Below, one piece after another: positions 1,724-20,399 of a stretch of DNA of 35,967 nt; within the stretch, counting starts at the first letter, position 1, and every line of letters begins with the position of its first letter. Below the pieces are notes generated by a model. The model worked only from the letters and a program-made list of their open reading frames with translations. It searched no databases and was not told the DNA's origin. Both the position numbers and the translations under genes were made by a program. The stretch lies in IMG/VR virus record IMGVR_UViG_3300029448_000156, positions 1 to 35,967 of that record; one strand, 5' to 3'. This stretch comes from a virus.

Positions 1724-2328
1724 TTTATATATTCTATGATTTGATTAATATTATTATGTTTGTAACAAATTAAACATTGTTTACATTTTGAAAAACAATT
1801 AATCTTTTTTTCTGTGAAATTTTTTGTTACATTGTTAAAAGTTTTATCAAAATATCGAGGCAATACTTCAATTGGTTTATCTAGTTGACTATTAGAAAAA
1901 ATTAAAATTAAGTTTTTTGGTTTATTGATTGTTTTAAAAACTTTGTTAATAATATCTTTTCTTTTAGTCCATAAAGTAAAAGTGCAATGTTCGTTTTTGT
2001 TAGTGATATTTATTAAATTAATTAAATGAGTATTATTAATTAATTCACCATGACTTGAAAATCTAAAAAATGCATCTAATATTGAAGGCAATAATTCATT
2101 TTGAATAATAACATTACTTAATAAATTACTGTTATGCTCCCATGAGGGAATACAATTTTTTCTCATTGTTTTCAACATATTGACCGAATAACAACTATTA
2201 CAAATTGAATTTTTGTTTTTATTTTGTTTAATGCAAAATGAATTACTCAAAGTATTTGTATTAATAGAGCGAATTTCTGCAAGTTTTCCAGATCCTTGAG
2301 AAATATTGATTCCAGTATAATTAACCAT
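1720..2328 (-). CDS. Gp88-like Cys-rich phage protein, 202 aa
   Basis: The sequence fits the phage gp88 family (Pfam 'Gene product 88') as I recall it: KLAEIRSINTNTLSNSFCI, ICNSCYSVNMLKTMRKNC, a central FRFSSHGELIN, then FTLWTKRKDI and LILIFSNSQLD, and a Cys cluster at the end (NCFSKCKQCLICY). The family role is unknown. The clustered Cys residues near both ends suggest a metal or Fe-S site, which is inference. The gene has its own promoter and AACGAAAGG leader and heads an operon with the two micro-genes. The length is about that of the family. Confidence 0.82.
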   Translation of the reverse strand: MVNYTGINISQGSGKLAEIRSINTNTLSNSFCIKQNKNKNSICNSCYSVNMLKTMRKNCIPSWEHNSNLLSNVIIQNELLPSILDAFFRFSSHGELINNTHLINLINITNKNEHCTFTLWTKRKDIINKVFKTINKPKNLILIFSNSQLDKPIEVLPRYFDKTFNNVTKNFTEKKINCFSKCKQCLICYKHNNINQIIEYIK

Positions 2329-2356
2329 TTTATTTTTACCTTTCGTTAGTTCTCTT

Positions 2357-2387
2357 ATAATATCCCATGTTATATAGGAGATGTCAA
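2357..2387 (-). promoter_or_regulatory. Probable promoter for the Gp88-like operon
   Basis: On the minus strand a perfect TTGACA (2387-2382) is followed by TATTAT (2362-2357). The 19-base spacing is longer than ideal. The AACGAAAGG leader then precedes the ATG at 2328. Apart from this promoter the 2329-2432 gap holds nothing I can identify. Confidence 0.5.
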
Positions 2388-2432
2388 TACATAAAATATT
2401 TTTTTTAAATGCCTGGAAACACCTGGCGAAAT

Positions 2433-2930
2433 TTACAAATTTTTAAGTAAAGCTTTAAACAGCTCCGATATAGATGAAGCGATCGTTTTTTGATTAAAAG
2501 ATATTGAAGCAAGAATCTCGAATCTTGGTTCAAGAATATGGTTGCTTGTGATATGATTGCGAATATGATTGTGAGTATGATTGTCAGTATGATTGCGAGT
2601 ATGATTGTCAGTATGATTGCGAATATGATTGCTCGAAATATGGTTCTGGACTCTGAGAAGTTTGAGTTCTCGTTGCTTGGTACACGAATGCAAGATAAAA
2701 ACTTTCCCTCCACATTTTTGTCGTTTTAAATGCCAATTAATTTGGAAGTTTGAAACTCCATAATTCTTGACTTGATTTGCTTTTAATTCTAACCAAAATT
2801 CCTTGCCTTCAATAAGACAGTTTACATCTGGAATGCCACGAATTGTGGCACTTTCAATTCTGCAAAAGTGCCACATTTTTTTTGGTTTTTGGAATAGGTT
2901 AATTTTACTCCAAAGTTGAGATTCATTCAT
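2433..2930 (-). CDS. VRR-NUC / PD-(D/E)XK-type nuclease with His-Asn repeat insert, 165 aa
   Basis: The N-terminal 90 residues fit a VRR-NUC-type nuclease of the restriction-endonuclease fold: Glu3, Gly-Ile-Pro-Asp at 32-35, Glu-Leu-Lys at 48-50 and Gln63 occupy the expected catalytic positions. Phage members of this family are thought to cut branched DNA. Residues about 96-131 are a run of Asn-His-Thr/Ile-x tetrapeptides encoded by 12-bp tandem repeats, followed by a C-terminal helix. Such a repeat is not part of the usual domain and looks like a later expansion or linker. The ATG overlaps the stop of the upstream gene (TAATG), making it the last gene of the 3707-2433 operon. Confidence 0.75.
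   Translation of the reverse strand: MNESQLWSKINLFQKPKKMWHFCRIESATIRGIPDVNCLIEGKEFWLELKANQVKNYGVSNFQINWHLKRQKCGGKVFILHSCTKQRELKLLRVQNHISSNHIRNHTDNHTRNHTDNHTHNHIRNHITSNHILEPRFEILASISFNQKTIASSISELFKALLKNL
2553..2632. repeat. 12-bp tandem repeat within the nuclease gene
   Basis: Six units of ATGATTGYSART lie head to tail at 2553-2624, followed by a partial seventh. On the minus strand the units encode Asn-His-Thr/Ile-x. Units alternate between two variants, so the array may have grown as 24-bp steps. All units keep the coding frame. Confidence 0.85.
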
Positions 2931-3142
2931 TACAGTTTTATGTTTGAATTTTCCTCAATAATTAACTCAAGTTCTTCGTCAGAATGAAGAAAAATATTTA
3001 AATCTCTCTTTAATTTTGAGGCATTTAAAATAATTTCTATTTTATTTTCAAAATTAGATTCTAGGAGTCGTATGTTATTTATATGAGCAAGAATATCTCC
3101 CTCTTCTTTACTTTTTTCGTCCCAAAAATATTTATCAGACAT
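2930..3142 (-). CDS. Hypothetical protein, 70 aa
   Basis: I chose the ATG at 3142 (MSDKYFWDEKSKEEGDIL) because GAAAGGAAG lies just upstream. A longer frame to 3205 runs through the neighbouring gene and lacks such a site. The protein is acidic and helical with no Cys (NNIRLLESNFENKIEIIL, then EELELIIEENSN). It overlaps the upstream gene by 8 bases and its stop overlaps the nuclease start (TAATG). The family is not recognised. Confidence 0.6.
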   Translation of the reverse strand: MSDKYFWDEKSKEEGDILAHINNIRLLESNFENKIEIILNASKLKRDLNIFLHSDEELELIIEENSNIKL

Positions 3143-3341
3143 TATTCTTCCTTTCTTTATATTGTTGATATCCTTTTTCTTCCAATTTATCCCATAATAC
3201 TCCAAATCGTATTAACCAAGAATACTGATATGGGTGTTTTATTTGGTTAGTTAGGTACATTTCATCTGCACTTAAAATTTCAGTAAATTTTTCTTTTTCA
3301 CACCATTTAATGTACAGTTTTGAGAGTAAATCTATTGTCAT
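3135..3341 (-). CDS. Hypothetical protein, 68 aa
   Basis: The start is well supported by GAGGAGG six bases before the ATG; this site is also the coding sequence of the last residues of the upstream protein. The sequence is Trp/Tyr-rich (LYIKWCEKEKF, HPYQYSWLIRFGVLWDKLEEKGY) and looks like a compact helical protein. It lies in the coupled 3707-2433 operon upstream of the nuclease. I cannot name a family. Confidence 0.65.
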   Translation of the reverse strand: MTIDLLSKLYIKWCEKEKFTEILSADEMYLTNQIKHPYQYSWLIRFGVLWDKLEEKGYQQYKERKNNV

Positions 3342-3342
3342 T

Positions 3343-3543
3343 TTATGCCTCCTCTATAAAAAGAAAACCACCACCATTACCCTCTTCATCTCGGCTAACA
3401 GATATTTTGATAGTTTCGTTACCTTTTTTCAGAATAAAAGTTGGAAAAGAATTGTCTTCATCCCCTTCTAATTTAAAACTCTTTATTGTAAATCCTTTTA
3501 ATGGACTATAATATTTGTTTACAAATTTTTCATATGATGTCAT
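3343..3543 (-). CDS. Conserved small phage protein (DEEGNGGGFLFIE ending), 66 aa
   Basis: The protein reads as a small beta-rich domain: TIKSFKLEGDEDNSFPTF, then TIKISVSRDEEGNGGGFLF. The C-terminal pattern 'S-x-D-E-E-G-N-G-x-G-F-L-x-I' is one I recall from small phage proteins of unknown role. Its ATG overlaps the stop of the upstream 55-aa gene, and GGGAG lies upstream. The C-terminal EEA codons double as the ribosome-binding site of the next gene. Confidence 0.65.
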   Translation of the reverse strand: MTSYEKFVNKYYSPLKGFTIKSFKLEGDEDNSFPTFILKKGNETIKISVSRDEEGNGGGFLFIEEA

Positions 3544-3707
3544 TTTTTTTCTCCCTTCATATCATCTAAATTATTTAAATAAAAATCTGCTAGATGGTTT
3601 AAAGTAATAATAGCCTCTTCATGAGCAACTTTATTCATTTGTAATTGACCCAGTAAATCTTCAAGGTCTTCAATAAGTGCTATATTGTCATTATATTGTA
3701 TCATCAT
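3540..3707 (-). CDS. Hypothetical protein, 55 aa
   Basis: A frame starting with two adjacent ATG codons (3707 or 3704) encodes a helical acidic protein (YNDNIALIEDLEDLLGQLQM, then HLADFYLNNLDDMKGEKK). AACGAAAGGA lies 4 bases before the first ATG and 7 before the second, so the second may be used. Its stop overlaps the next gene's start (ATGA). A good promoter lies at 3741-3768. It is the first gene of the 3707-2433 operon. The family is not recognised. Confidence 0.6.
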   Translation of the reverse strand: MMIQYNDNIALIEDLEDLLGQLQMNKVAHEEAIITLNHLADFYLNNLDDMKGEKK

Positions 3708-6865: not shown

Positions 6866-7180
6866 TTATTTTGATTCGTCATTCATGTCTCGTTGGTACT
6901 TAATATTTTTAGACTTATAGGTAGGCAGTTGACTATCGCAATTTGAACAAACAAGTCTTAGGTTATTAATCCTATTATCTTTATTATTACCATTGATGTG
7001 ATCTAATACAAGAGAAAGTTTTTTTCCTTCCCAAACCCCTTTATTTTTACAAATAGAGCATTCATATTTAAAGTTAAATTCTTTAAGTAGACGTTCCTTG
7101 ATGCGTGTTCGATTAGTGTAAGTAGAATTTTCTACAAACAAATCTTCATTAGAAATGCGATTATGTTTATTGTACCCCAC
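6866..7180 (-). CDS. HNH endonuclease, about 104 aa
   Basis: The core is a phage HNH domain with two zinc-knuckle CxxC pairs: ECSICKN, then LSLVLDHINGNNKDNRINNL, LVCSNCDSQLPTYKSKN. The Asp-His pair and the Asn of the second motif are present. The last motif is N-C-D where most relatives have N-C-H, so one metal ligand may be substituted. No in-frame ATG lies upstream of the domain. GTG at 7180 has GGAAG close upstream and is my choice; GTG at 7207 gives 9 more residues but has no site. It may be a free-standing homing nuclease or a packaging-associated HNH protein. Confidence 0.8.
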   Translation of the reverse strand: MGYNKHNRISNEDLFVENSTYTNRTRIKERLLKEFNFKYECSICKNKGVWEGKKLSLVLDHINGNNKDNRINNLRLVCSNCDSQLPTYKSKNIKYQRDMNDESK

Positions 7181-7325
7181 GTCTTCCGGACCCTTTACAT
7201 TGGTCACATGCGATCGTTTGTAAAATTTTTGGTTTTCGTATTCTTACACGTTTGGTAATAAAGTACCCATAACCTCTACAATGGCTGCAAGGTTCATAGA
7301 TTTCATCTTCATCTCTTCTTACCAT
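7167..7325 (-). CDS. Small DnaJ-type zinc-finger protein, 52 aa
   Basis: The product has two CxxCxGxG-like motifs, CSHCRGYG and CDQCKGSG, separated by a basic stretch (TKRVRIRKPK). These are the signature of the DnaJ central zinc domain, here without a J domain. It overlaps the 45-aa zinc-ribbon gene by 17 bases and runs into the HNH gene's start. There is no obvious ribosome-binding site before the ATG, so coupling to the upstream gene is likely. Free-standing DnaJ-like zinc fingers are common in phages; the role is unknown. Confidence 0.65.
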   Translation of the reverse strand: MVRRDEDEIYEPCSHCRGYGYFITKRVRIRKPKILQTIACDQCKGSGRRGVQ

Positions 7326-9052: not shown

Positions 9053-10916
9053 CTTCTCCGAAGTCTTTGCCTAAAGCAATGTCTATTACACTTGGAACCT
9101 TCAGTTTCACGCAACCCTCCATCTCTCTCACGATTTTATCTACTTGCTCTTGACTCTCAATATTAAAACACAGTTCATCATGAATTTGTAATAAAGGAGT
9201 GAACCCTAACTCATGACACGAAACAACTGCTTGTTTTGTTTGATCGGCCGCAGATCCTTGAATCAATCGGTTTAATGCTTTGTAAGTAAAAGCCCGTTTT
9301 ATATTATGTGAACCATATTTTGCAGAAGCATTCTCAAAAGTTTCTGGATTATAAATGCCAAAGTCTCTGGGTTGCCACATATTAAAACGACACTTACGTC
9401 CCAGTTTTGTTCTAATAATGCCTTCACTCTCAGCTTTTTTCATACACCGATCTGATAACAGTTTAACAAAAGGAACTTTTTGATTGTATTGATCAATTAA
9501 ATTTTTAGCCTCCACAAACTCTAACCCTAACATATTTGCTAATTTATTTTTACCCATGCCATACATTAAACCTAATCCAATTGTCTTTGCTTGTTTTCTT
9601 TCAATACCACAAATGTCTGCAACAGTTTGGTGAAAATCTGCATCGGCATTTGCATAAGCTTCTACTAACTCTTGCGAACCTTGATACCCTTCTCCGATAG
9701 AAGCAGCATAGTGAACCACGAGCCGTGGTTCTTGTTGCGAGTAGTCAAAACTGCCCCACTTACATCCTTCTTCCGGTAAGAAGAGACCTCGAATCAATGG
9801 ACCAAACTCTTTGTTTCTTGCCGGTAATTGTTGCAAGTTTGGACTAGACATAGACAAACGACCACTTACTGTTCCTCCAGAGTCTGAGCGCAATTGATTG
9901 ATTTCGGCATGGATTCTACCTTTATGCGCAAATTTCATAATAGAATTTAAAAATGTGTTATGAAATTTATTGACCTCCCTTGCCTGGACAATCAACTTAC
10001 TAATTTCATGAGGGTTATTACTCAACCAATTTTGAGTAAAACTAGGTTCTTGAGTTTTAATTGTTTTAGGATATTCAATATCTAATTTATCAAAAGCAAA
10101 ACCAATTTGTCGAGCATTCCAAATATCAATGTCTTTGCCCACTAATTTTTTTATTTTTAATAAGATTGTTTTTTCTTTAGAAGAAAAATCTTTTTGTAAG
10201 ATCGATGCTTTTTCTGTATCCACTCGAATACCTTTCATTCTCATTTTAATAAGTATAGGCAACAGTTTACTTTCTAAATCCCAAATAGTTTCTAAACTTT
10301 GAGAAGCAATTTCATGTTTAAAGCGTTGCCATAAAAGATACGTGAGCCGTGCATCTTGTTCTGCGTAATATCCCACATGTTCTGCCGGTAACATCCACAT
10401 TTCTCCTTTTGGATCTACTCCATGCGCTTTAGCGGCTTCTCTTAAATCAGTTTCAGCTTTTAACTCTCCTAAATAATCCTTGGCTAAAGCATTCAACTTA
10501 TAAGTATATCTATTCTCATCAATCAAAGCGCCTGCAATCATGGTATCAACAATCGAACCTTTAACATCTATTCCATAAGCTTGAAGCCATCCTACATCGT
10601 ATTGAGCATTGTGAAATATTTTTGTGCAAGGTAGTTTACAAACATCATGCATGTAGTTTAAAACTTGTTCTTTAATTAAATTACCCCCTCCAAAATGACC
10701 GAAGGGATAATAACCCTCCCAACCTTCGGTAGCAACTGCAAACCCAATAATCTCTCCTTTTTTAGTAGCCCAACCTGCTCCTCGACCACTGTTAATCCCT
10801 TCATCTCTTGTTTCTAAATCAATTGCAATTTCTTTAGCCTCACGCAAATCTTTATACTCAATTGGCGCGGCCCAAATATTTTTTTTAAAATTAAAGTTTA
10901 ATTGTAATGCTGTCAT
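9045..10916 (-). CDS. polA: Family A DNA polymerase with 3'-5' exonuclease, 623 aa
   Basis: This replicative polymerase carries a DnaQ-like proofreading domain: Asp33/Glu35 in IDLETRD, Asp107 in FHNAQYD, Tyr184/Asp188 in YAEQD. The palm and fingers follow: motif A SFDYSQQEPRLV with Asp391, motif B RKQAKTIGLGLMYG with Lys444 and Tyr452, motif C QIHDE with Asp580. There is no 5'-3' exonuclease domain, as usual for phages. Leu448 occupies the place of E. coli Pol I Phe762, a substitution tied in the phage literature to slower, more accurate synthesis and a less strictly lytic life style. The ATG overlaps the methyltransferase stop (ATGA). Confidence 0.97.
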   Translation of the reverse strand: MTALQLNFNFKKNIWAAPIEYKDLREAKEIAIDLETRDEGINSGRGAGWATKKGEIIGFAVATEGWEGYYPFGHFGGGNLIKEQVLNYMHDVCKLPCTKIFHNAQYDVGWLQAYGIDVKGSIVDTMIAGALIDENRYTYKLNALAKDYLGELKAETDLREAAKAHGVDPKGEMWMLPAEHVGYYAEQDARLTYLLWQRFKHEIASQSLETIWDLESKLLPILIKMRMKGIRVDTEKASILQKDFSSKEKTILLKIKKLVGKDIDIWNARQIGFAFDKLDIEYPKTIKTQEPSFTQNWLSNNPHEISKLIVQAREVNKFHNTFLNSIMKFAHKGRIHAEINQLRSDSGGTVSGRLSMSSPNLQQLPARNKEFGPLIRGLFLPEEGCKWGSFDYSQQEPRLVVHYAASIGEGYQGSQELVEAYANADADFHQTVADICGIERKQAKTIGLGLMYGMGKNKLANMLGLEFVEAKNLIDQYNQKVPFVKLLSDRCMKKAESEGIIRTKLGRKCRFNMWQPRDFGIYNPETFENASAKYGSHNIKRAFTYKALNRLIQGSAADQTKQAVVSCHELGFTPLLQIHDELCFNIESQEQVDKIVREMEGCVKLKVPSVIDIALGKDFGEAT

Positions 10917-11983
10917 TTCTCTGCTTCTATTATAGCTAAACCAAATTCATAAACAACCTGGGGAACTATAGAGTTTCCAAGGGCTTTTATTCTGTGGACT
11001 CTATTTTTGTCCAAGTCGTAGGATATCCCATGAGGAAGCTCACGAAGTCTGCATTCAGCTTGCCACCATGTGTATTGTTCTTTAGAACTTGATTGGGTAA
11101 TGTTTTGTCTCGATGGGGTCTCCAATTTGGATTGTAAGCTATATCCTTGTAGTCCCTTGCTCTTGGAGTGGGTAGCATCTCTGTCTCCAATTTGTTCACT
11201 ACATCGTTTAGTTTTGCTCCGAATCGTGTCCCTGATTTCTTTCTCGTTACTGTCCAACCGCTTTTGTTTTGTTTCACTGTTTCCGGAGATGCCACTACAT
11301 CCATTTGACAACTGACTGTCGGTGTTGGATACATTGTATGTGCCTCTTTCTGAACTGCATGTCGTAGAGCATAATGCAGATTGATCCCCTCTTTTTTCTT
11401 CTTCTCTGCTCTCTTCTCCCAATTCTCTATATCCTCTGCTGGATTGGTCGCTCCATCGTTGGTGTTGGGTGTTGGATACATTGCCATTGTCTGCGGAGTA
11501 GCCAATAATCCAAACTCTGTTTCTTTGGTGCCAAGCACCTTTGCCTGAAGCTGGAATAACGAAACATTGGACTTCGAAACCTTCACTTTCCAAGTCATTG
11601 TGCACCTGTCGGAGAACCATGCCGTTCTCGATGTTAATAATACCTTGCACATTTTCCCCAATAACCCACCTTGGTTTAACCTCGGAAATGACTCGAAACA
11701 TTTCTGGCCAGAGATAGCGCTCGTCACTTGTTCCTTTTTGTTTTCCTGCTTGACTGAACCCTTGACATGGGAACCCTCCAGTAACGACATCTGCTTTAAT
11801 TTCTTTTCCATTGATACTCCTTATATCTTCATATATTTTAATATTAGGAAAATTTTTTGCCAATACTTTTTGACAAAATTTATCCATCTCACAAAATCCA
11901 ACAGTTTCAAAATGACCGGTAGATTCTAAACCATAACTGAAACCACCAATACCAGCAAACAAATCTAACACTTTAAGTTTCAC
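10913..11983 (-). CDS. dcm: C5-cytosine DNA methyltransferase, 356 aa
   Basis: It transfers methyl from S-adenosylmethionine to cytosine C5. Motif I is DLFAGIGGF (7-15), motif IV GGFPCQGFSQAG with catalytic Cys73, motif VI ENVQG (110-114), motif VIII QRNRVWIIG (153-161), and motif X RIKALGNSIVPQ near the end. The region between VIII and X (about 165-325), the target-recognition part, is unusually rich in Ser, Glu, Arg, Asn and Gln with NT repeats (VSNTQHQRW, NVSNTDSQLS). The same DNA is open in another frame along this stretch (see nested gene). There is no cognate restriction enzyme next to it, so protection against host restriction or a modification role is likely. Confidence 0.95.
   Translation of the reverse strand: MKLKVLDLFAGIGGFSYGLESTGHFETVGFCEMDKFCQKVLAKNFPNIKIYEDIRSINGKEIKADVVTGGFPCQGFSQAGKQKGTSDERYLWPEMFRVISEVKPRWVIGENVQGIINIENGMVLRQVHNDLESEGFEVQCFVIPASGKGAWHQRNRVWIIGYSADNGNVSNTQHQRWSDQSSRGYRELGEESREEEKRGDQSALCSTTCSSERGTYNVSNTDSQLSNGCSGISGNSETKQKRLDSNEKEIRDTIRSKTKRCSEQIGDRDATHSKSKGLQGYSLQSKLETPSRQNITQSSSKEQYTWWQAECRLRELPHGISYDLDKNRVHRIKALGNSIVPQVVYEFGLAIIEAEK
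10987..11811 (-). CDS. Out-of-frame gene nested in the methyltransferase gene (PTP-motif protein), 274 aa
   Basis: A 274-codon frame lies wholly inside the methyltransferase gene on the same strand, shifted by one base. Its ATG (11811) is preceded at exactly 5 bases by AAGGAG (11822-11817). The translation is protein-like: RTAWFSDRCTMTWKVKVSKS, LLATPQTMAMYPTPNTNDG, MYPTPTVSCQMD, MLPTPRARDYKD, and GGKLNADFVSFLMGYPTTWT at the end. I recall similar sequences ('LPTPTARD ... LNPxFVEWLMGFPxGWT') annotated in other phages and bacteria, often mislabelled as methyltransferases. The NT-rich methyltransferase segments are the one-base-shifted reading of the TP motifs. Its function is unknown, and it could still be a by-product of the methyltransferase code. 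Confidence 0.55.
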   Translation of the reverse strand: MEKKLKQMSLLEGSHVKGSVKQENKKEQVTSAISGQKCFESFPRLNQGGLLGKMCKVLLTSRTAWFSDRCTMTWKVKVSKSNVSLFQLQAKVLGTKETEFGLLATPQTMAMYPTPNTNDGATNPAEDIENWEKRAEKKKKEGINLHYALRHAVQKEAHTMYPTPTVSCQMDVVASPETVKQNKSGWTVTRKKSGTRFGAKLNDVVNKLETEMLPTPRARDYKDIAYNPNWRPHRDKTLPNQVLKNNTHGGKLNADFVSFLMGYPTTWTKIESTE

Positions 11984-20040: not shown

Positions 20041-20352
20041 TTATTTTTTTTTCTTTGTAAACAAAGCAGGGCCAGGTGGTGTTTTCTTACCAGTCTTTTT
20101 TCCAAGAGTATATCCCATAGTTTTAGCCGCTAATCTTAAATCACTTAAACTAAGACGACCTCCTTCTTCTCTTGCTCTTGCTGTTTGCATAGCTTTCTTC
20201 ATTATGGCGCCTTTTGAATAGCCTTTTGCCATTTTACCACCTTTGGCTTTCATCATTTTTGTTCCACCTTTAGCATAGCCTTTAGCCATCTTGCCTTTTT
20301 TAGCTTTCATCATTTTAGTGCCACCTTTAGAGTAGCCTTTTGATTTCATCAT
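20041..20352 (-). CDS. Lys/Gly/Met-rich repeat protein, 103 aa
   Basis: The first 50 residues are two and a half copies of a 20-residue unit (GYxKGGTKMMKAKxGKMAK), encoded by 60-bp direct repeats. The strong positive charge suggests nucleic-acid or virion-core binding. The second half has AREEGGRLSLSDLRLAA, which also appears in the 598-aa virion protein (25524-27320), and the tail is Lys-rich (FTKKKK). Marine phages often carry such repeat proteins. GGATAAAATT lies upstream of the ATG pair. It may be a virion-associated DNA-binding protein (inference). Confidence 0.68.
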   Translation of the reverse strand: MMKSKGYSKGGTKMMKAKKGKMAKGYAKGGTKMMKAKGGKMAKGYSKGAIMKKAMQTARAREEGGRLSLSDLRLAAKTMGYTLGKKTGKKTPPGPALFTKKKK

Positions 20353-20399
20353 AATTTTATCCTTGTATTAATTAATAGTGCTTATAGTATATTAGGTTT

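Follow-up and report, generated by a model that had tools for sequence, protein, structure and literature searches.

The DNA analysed here, referred to as the window, is a stretch of 35,967 nt from an IMG/VR virus record. It carries a C5-cytosine methyltransferase ORF, alpha, and within that gene, on the same strand and shifted by +1 relative to alpha, a second long ORF, beta. The features of the locus are the following:

10913..11983, minus strand: alpha, C5-cytosine methyltransferase ORF of 356 aa, GTG at 11983 (Pfam PF00145, 8e-55)
11817..11822, minus strand: AAGGAG, Shine-Dalgarno-like, 5 bases ahead of the nested ATG (seen in the sequence)
10987..11811, minus strand: beta, the nested ORF of 274 aa and the reported feature, ATG at 11811, stop at 10989-10987
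11509..11811, minus strand: beta N-terminal domain, residues 1-101, over alpha motifs IV-VIII (alpha synonymous sites depressed)
11335..11481, minus strand: beta module A, MYPTPNTNDGATNPAEDIENWEK..., residues 111-159 (module cluster 6)
11179..11334, minus strand: beta module B, MYPTPTVSCQMDVVASPETV..., residues 160-211 (module cluster 3, 32 loci)
11071..11178, minus strand: beta module C, MLPTPRARDYKDIAYN..., residues 212-247 (module cluster 2, 48 copies in 45 loci)
10990..11070, minus strand: motif IX-like C-terminus of beta, GGKLNADFVSFLMGYPTTWTKIESTE (most conserved part of beta)
11084..11485, minus strand: alpha residues 167-300, a stop-free low-complexity linker replacing the recognition domain (pLDDT; 0 stops against 12.4 expected)
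10916..11002, minus strand: motif X region of alpha, KNRVHRIKALGNSIVPQVVYEFGLAIIEAEK (conserved columns R331, L335, G336, N337 and P341; pLDDT 94-95)

A preliminary description of this DNA, which gave no strand, had reported a nested gene of 274 codons opening at an ATG with AAGGAG 5 bases ahead of it and carrying three PTP motifs. All of this was confirmed: the gene lies on the minus strand, AAGGAG occupies 11822-11817, and the motifs are MYPTP, MYPTP and MLPTP, accompanied by one LLATP, with GKLNADFVSFLMGYPTTWTKIESTE at the C-terminal end. The same description had the overlap running from motif III almost to the end of the methyltransferase gene; the nested frame in fact opens at codon 58 of alpha, shortly ahead of motif IV, and stops just short of motif X. 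The +1 relation of beta to alpha was found in all phage and bacterial loci examined in which both frames are intact. Among the relatives listed, the distance from the nested ATG to motif I was 148 nt in 84 loci, 154 in 17, 151 in 6 and 145 in 6, and both the Shine-Dalgarno-like site and the position of the ATG recurred in most of them, which answers the proposal that the conservation of AAGGAG and ATG be checked. Beta and alpha form a very long conserved same-strand overlap, of up to 604 codons, in which the two frames clearly divide the labour.

Alpha qualifies as a C5-methyltransferase, since it matches PF00145 and shows motifs I, IV (PCQ), VI (ENV), VIII and X; overall it contains motifs I-VIII and X and lacks motif IX, and its invariant residues are P72 C73 Q74, E110 N111 V112, R154 R156 and G336 N337. 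AlphaFold modelled most of motifs I-VIII with a pLDDT of 92-98, and residues 167-245 and 252-300 with a pLDDT below 50. No folded target-recognition domain was found between motif VIII and the position of motif IX in alpha: residues 167-300 are predicted to be disordered, and the nested frame is the one selected there. Most likely, the only role of this linker, which crosses the beta gene out of frame, is to get to motif X. In one relative (L207, 2501-4108) the linker contains a single alpha-frame stop (3059) and beta is open over 451 codons, which may reflect a natural split, decay or a sequencing error.

Synonymous recoding of the 102 alpha codons in the catalytic overlap produced a mean of 5.7 nested stops against 0 observed, none of 200 synonymous shuffles of alpha left the nested frame open, and the same recoding in 127 loci gave a mean of 7.0 expected nested stops against 0. 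Recoding the nested codons of the region beyond it gave 12.4 expected alpha-frame stops in the window, where 0 are observed, and a mean of 16.5 in the 127 loci. Since stops are expected under synonymous recoding of either frame and none is seen, both frames are actively kept open. When relatives were collected by methyltransferase sequence, a +1 ORF with the LMGYP ending was present in all 73 that could be analysed, while none of 69 canonical Dcm-type loci collected likewise had such an ORF. The longest +1 ORF measured 229-430 codons in the 73 relatives (median 328), with the longest +2 ORF not exceeding 69, and had a median of 48 and a maximum of 136 codons in the 69 controls. The claim of a conserved overlapping gene is borne out by this comparison, and the random stop codons in the second frame of relatives that had been named as refuting it did not occur, the +1 ORF being open in 73 of 73.

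Because the nested frame is +1, codon position 3 of alpha is codon position 2 of beta. Between the closest pairs, divergence at alpha codon positions 1/2/3 was.010/.005/.147 in the non-overlapped C-terminal end of alpha, as in a normal gene,.061/.020/.106 in the catalytic overlap, where position 3 is depressed and both frames are constrained, and.120/.030/.017 from motif VIII to the end of the overlap (the recognition region), which is the periodicity of the nested frame; each of these values pools many non-independent pairs. When the modules were aligned by their nested reading, divergence at nested positions 1 and 2 was below that at position 3 throughout, the usual coding pattern for this frame. 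For moderately to highly diverged pairs, the rate at nested fourfold sites in the modules was about 0.5-1.0 of that at the methyltransferase ends; in the closest pairs these sites evolved faster, for which module exchange could be the cause. We conclude that it is the nested frame that is under selection in the recognition region, almost to the exclusion of alpha; since its periodicity rules there, the alpha frame has little amino-acid constraint beyond the absence of stops. The frame-specific constraint that the preliminary description had proposed to look for is therefore present, as the flip of codon-position divergence to the nested frame. Its observation that the methyltransferase frame is of low complexity in the overlap also stands, but this low complexity is no symmetric compromise of two codes, alpha being a stop-free linker in the recognition region.

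Throughout the family, beta follows one plan, with an N-terminus of about 100 residues, modules opening with [MLF][YWL]PTP and a near-invariant LNPxFVEFLMGYPxxWT. In the N-terminal domain G35, L51, W74, K75 and L88 are conserved, and a beta hairpin is predicted at residues 70-92. Our survey, in which module homology was set by the PTP pattern so that counts are approximate, yielded 518 modules with a median length of 42 aa and 1-8 modules per protein. The modules are shuffled between loci: 156 distinct loci displayed 112 module architectures, and 84 module pairs were at least 85% identical despite N-terminal cores less than 60% identical. Module A of the window belongs to a cluster of 24 copies that occupy varied array positions in 16 loci, and it shares 93% identity with a module of locus L021, whereas the flanks share just 45-47%. 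Several contiguous, exchangeable modules, the mark of a multispecific enzyme, are thus present in beta, and we infer that it is these modules which recognize DNA.

The isolated beta model had a mean pLDDT of 63.7 and a pTM of 0.30, its best-predicted stretch being module B (pLDDT 85-91). A fold search with this model returned no significant match, the beta profile matched none of the sequences of solved structures, and no family match was found in Pfam or NCBIfam. Beta did match the PHROG family phrog_1008, named 'DNA methyltransferase', over residues 3-272 with an E-value of 3e-20, and its relatives match the same family with values up to 1e-73. That name fits the overlapped gene, whereas the family itself lacks motifs I-VIII, which agrees with the earlier statement that proteins similar to the nested one are often mislabelled as methyltransferases.

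The C-terminus of beta appears to be the missing motif IX, a link that draws on short alignments. In an hhalign comparison, canonical motif IX (RKLTPLECERLQTVPDGYT) aligned with the nested GKLNPxFVEFLMGYPxxWT over 20 ungapped columns (E 0.0015), and in a locus on a Megaera plasmid (L221) an in-frame LNPDWVEWLMGYPISWTD-GNAVV aligned collinearly with residues 270-314 of M.HhaI, which comprise motifs IX-X, with an HhaI domain score below 5 bits. Eight bacterial loci (L112, L123, L133, L233, L234, L235, L333 and L334) have a split form. In these, ORF1 (alpha) stops shortly past motif VIII, while ORF2, whose start overlaps ORF1 out of frame, encodes the N-terminal domain, the PTP modules, an LNxxWVExLMxxP motif and motif X. 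By its order of motifs, the split form puts the PTP modules exactly at the position of the recognition domain. Four of the split betas (L133, 2506-3636; L123, 2941-4041; L233; L234) have an extra PTP-like module between motifs IX and X. Separately, the alpha ending EPxVGRVAxGVPxRVDRLKxLGNAIVPQ, common in methyltransferases of this kind, is what the beta motif IX codons encode in the other frame, as in L004 near 2950-3030, and for this reason it may serve as a signature of a hidden beta.

A long module with the pattern EHWFRxDxxFSYP (...IEHWFRKDKCFSYPSPEDW...) occurs in the nested frame of loci L020 and L029. The same domain is found in frame in an amino-methyltransferase of Staphylococcus phage Alsa_2 (L137), between SPPY and DPFxGSG, and in frame in two marine phage Dcm-type enzymes (L138, L139), between motifs VIII and IX; placed by these flanking motifs, it holds the recognition-domain position in two unrelated enzyme classes. 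Its matches to known methyltransferases cover roughly 40-110 residues with 30-49% identity, and it is not among the window's own modules. In five further loci (L007, 474-1730; L011; L022; L026; L028) beta runs about 140 residues beyond the alpha stop and ends in an extra EHWFR-type module after motif IX.

In having motifs I-VIII and X on the large chain and motif IX on the small one, alpha and beta of the window show the same motif split as M.EcoHK31I. The coding sequences of the two M.EcoHK31I chains reportedly overlap in different reading frames, which Lee et al. are said to have described in 1995. The published prediction for that enzyme puts its recognition domain on the large chain, whereas in the window it is the small nested chain that has the recognition modules, and in the family they number 1-8 and are shuffled. 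Both M.EcoHK31I (YGGCCR), with alpha and beta chains divided as above, and M.AquI (CYCGRG), which is split within the variable region and has motifs IX-X on the small chain, are two-chain enzymes (PMC3404938). The M.AquI split resembles the bacterial loci L112, L133 and L333, but its source description contains no long out-of-frame overlap, and the window type keeps motif X on alpha. Temperate Bacillus phages of the SPbeta type have multispecific C5-methyltransferases whose arrays of recognition domains give protection from numerous restriction systems (PMC12707154); in those enzymes a single polypeptide, read in one frame, contains both the array and the catalytic core, while in the window the array is in the other frame. 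In Paenibacillus phage Diva the nested gene has been marked before as internal to the methyltransferase gene (DIVA_50, 'g49 internal gene'), but as a hypothetical protein to which no function was given, and the YdiP/BsuMI label given in phage HB10c2 looks like annotation transfer. In the open literature we found no paper describing the nested family. What is new here is the assignment of recognition modules to an out-of-frame chain, their shuffled arrays and their breadth in phages, the motif layout being that of M.EcoHK31I.

With two conserved genes under frame-specific selection, a motif split between them, modules that are shuffled and a split form in bacteria, the locus very probably encodes one sequence-specific C5-cytosine methyltransferase made of two chains, of which beta carries the recognition modules and motif IX. 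Beta would be translated from a separate start within alpha, with an ATG and a ribosome-binding site of its own, fold as most of the small (DNA-recognition) domain and join alpha; alpha would bring SAM binding, the catalytic cysteine and motifs I-VIII and X, and beta the N-terminal domain, the array of recognition modules of about 42 aa and motif IX. Swap, gain or loss of modules would then alter the methylated sites, and the changed sites would shield phage DNA from different host restriction enzymes. A more specific reading is that each PTP module of about 42 aa sets its own methylation target, the overprinted pair being a multispecific anti-restriction enzyme that evolves by module shuffling with a catalytic frame that is merely stop-free; we regard it as evenly poised between right and wrong. 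The preliminary description had guessed at a methyltransferase partner or an anti-restriction protein, and the former guess was right in kind, the evidence pointing to an integral subunit with recognition modules and motif IX rather than to a separate anti-restriction protein.

Several other explanations of the nested frame were weighed against the two-chain enzyme. A programmed frameshift, in which a +1 shift after motif VIII and a shift back before motif X would yield an enzyme made of one chain and having a normal recognition domain, agrees with the dominance of the nested frame exactly between motifs VIII and X, and with locus L134, from a metagenome-assembled Pelosinus (2302-3558), where one frame runs through motifs I-VIII, the PTP modules, IX and X; one altered base within a T-run of the assembly may explain that locus, and we set it aside as proof of an in-frame fusion. 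Frameshifting is nevertheless unlikely, as the constraint on about 100 beta residues upstream of motif VIII would be pointless, the nested ATG and the Shine-Dalgarno site lie at a fixed distance, and in the split loci no return shift is possible because motif X lies in beta. Anti-restriction proteins do occur in phages and beta has no Pfam or NCBIfam match, so a separate protein, such as an anti-restriction or regulatory factor, might have been overprinted on the methyltransferase gene; we consider this quite unlikely, since beta accompanies this type of methyltransferase in all the relatives examined, contains motif IX, occupies the recognition position and is joined to motif X in the split loci.

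Out-of-frame genes inside methylases have a published precedent in an actinobacteriophage methylase with an HNH gene in its second frame (PMC11855218). A hidden homing endonuclease of this ShiLan-like kind, also a second frame open inside a methylase gene but an insertion unrelated to target recognition, is very improbable for beta: no HNH or other endonuclease domain was found in the second frame with Pfam, PHROGs or NCBIfam, the overlap extends over catalytic motifs IV-VIII and is not a clean insertion, and, rather than being patchy, the nested frame occurs in every relative of this type. We rejected this candidate for its lack of a match and its wrong geometry. Biased sequence can yield stop-free alternative frames, and no specific result backs chance here; an open frame arising from base composition or methyltransferase codon bias has a vanishingly small probability and is ruled out by the synonymous shuffles, the Dcm control set and the flipped codon periodicity.

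As a two-chain enzyme, the system would combine the split-chain layout with a multispecific array, the array being in the other frame, and it would account for many proteins misnamed 'DNA methyltransferase' as well as for methyltransferases with seemingly junk recognition domains. It predicts that alpha expressed alone is inactive or non-specific, so that predictions made from the annotated chain would be wrong, and the bacterial split forms make an evolutionary route testable. The nested family occurs in marine phages, in phages of Paenibacillus, Bacteroides, Rhodobacter and Escherichia, and also in bacteria, with 12 hits among 200 genomes of one class and 7 among 300 of another, and a scan of viral contigs gave at least 404 confirmed relatives. 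Escherichia phage Bas70 holds a minimal version, with an alpha of 261 aa and a beta of 220 aa containing one module, which makes the hypothesis directly testable.

Elsewhere in the window, 12-bp tandem repeats at 2551-2632 encode an NHIRNHTDNHT protein repeat in the ORF 2930..2433 (minus strand), and a second open frame, 2405..2713, spans these repeats. Tandem repeats of 57 bp at 20210-20359 encode a lysine/glycine-rich protein (MMKAKGGKMAKGYSKGG), and a small HNH-endonuclease-like ORF (CSICKNKGVWEGKKLSLVLDHINGNNKDNRINNLRLVCSNCDSQ) lies at 6866-7207 on the minus strand.
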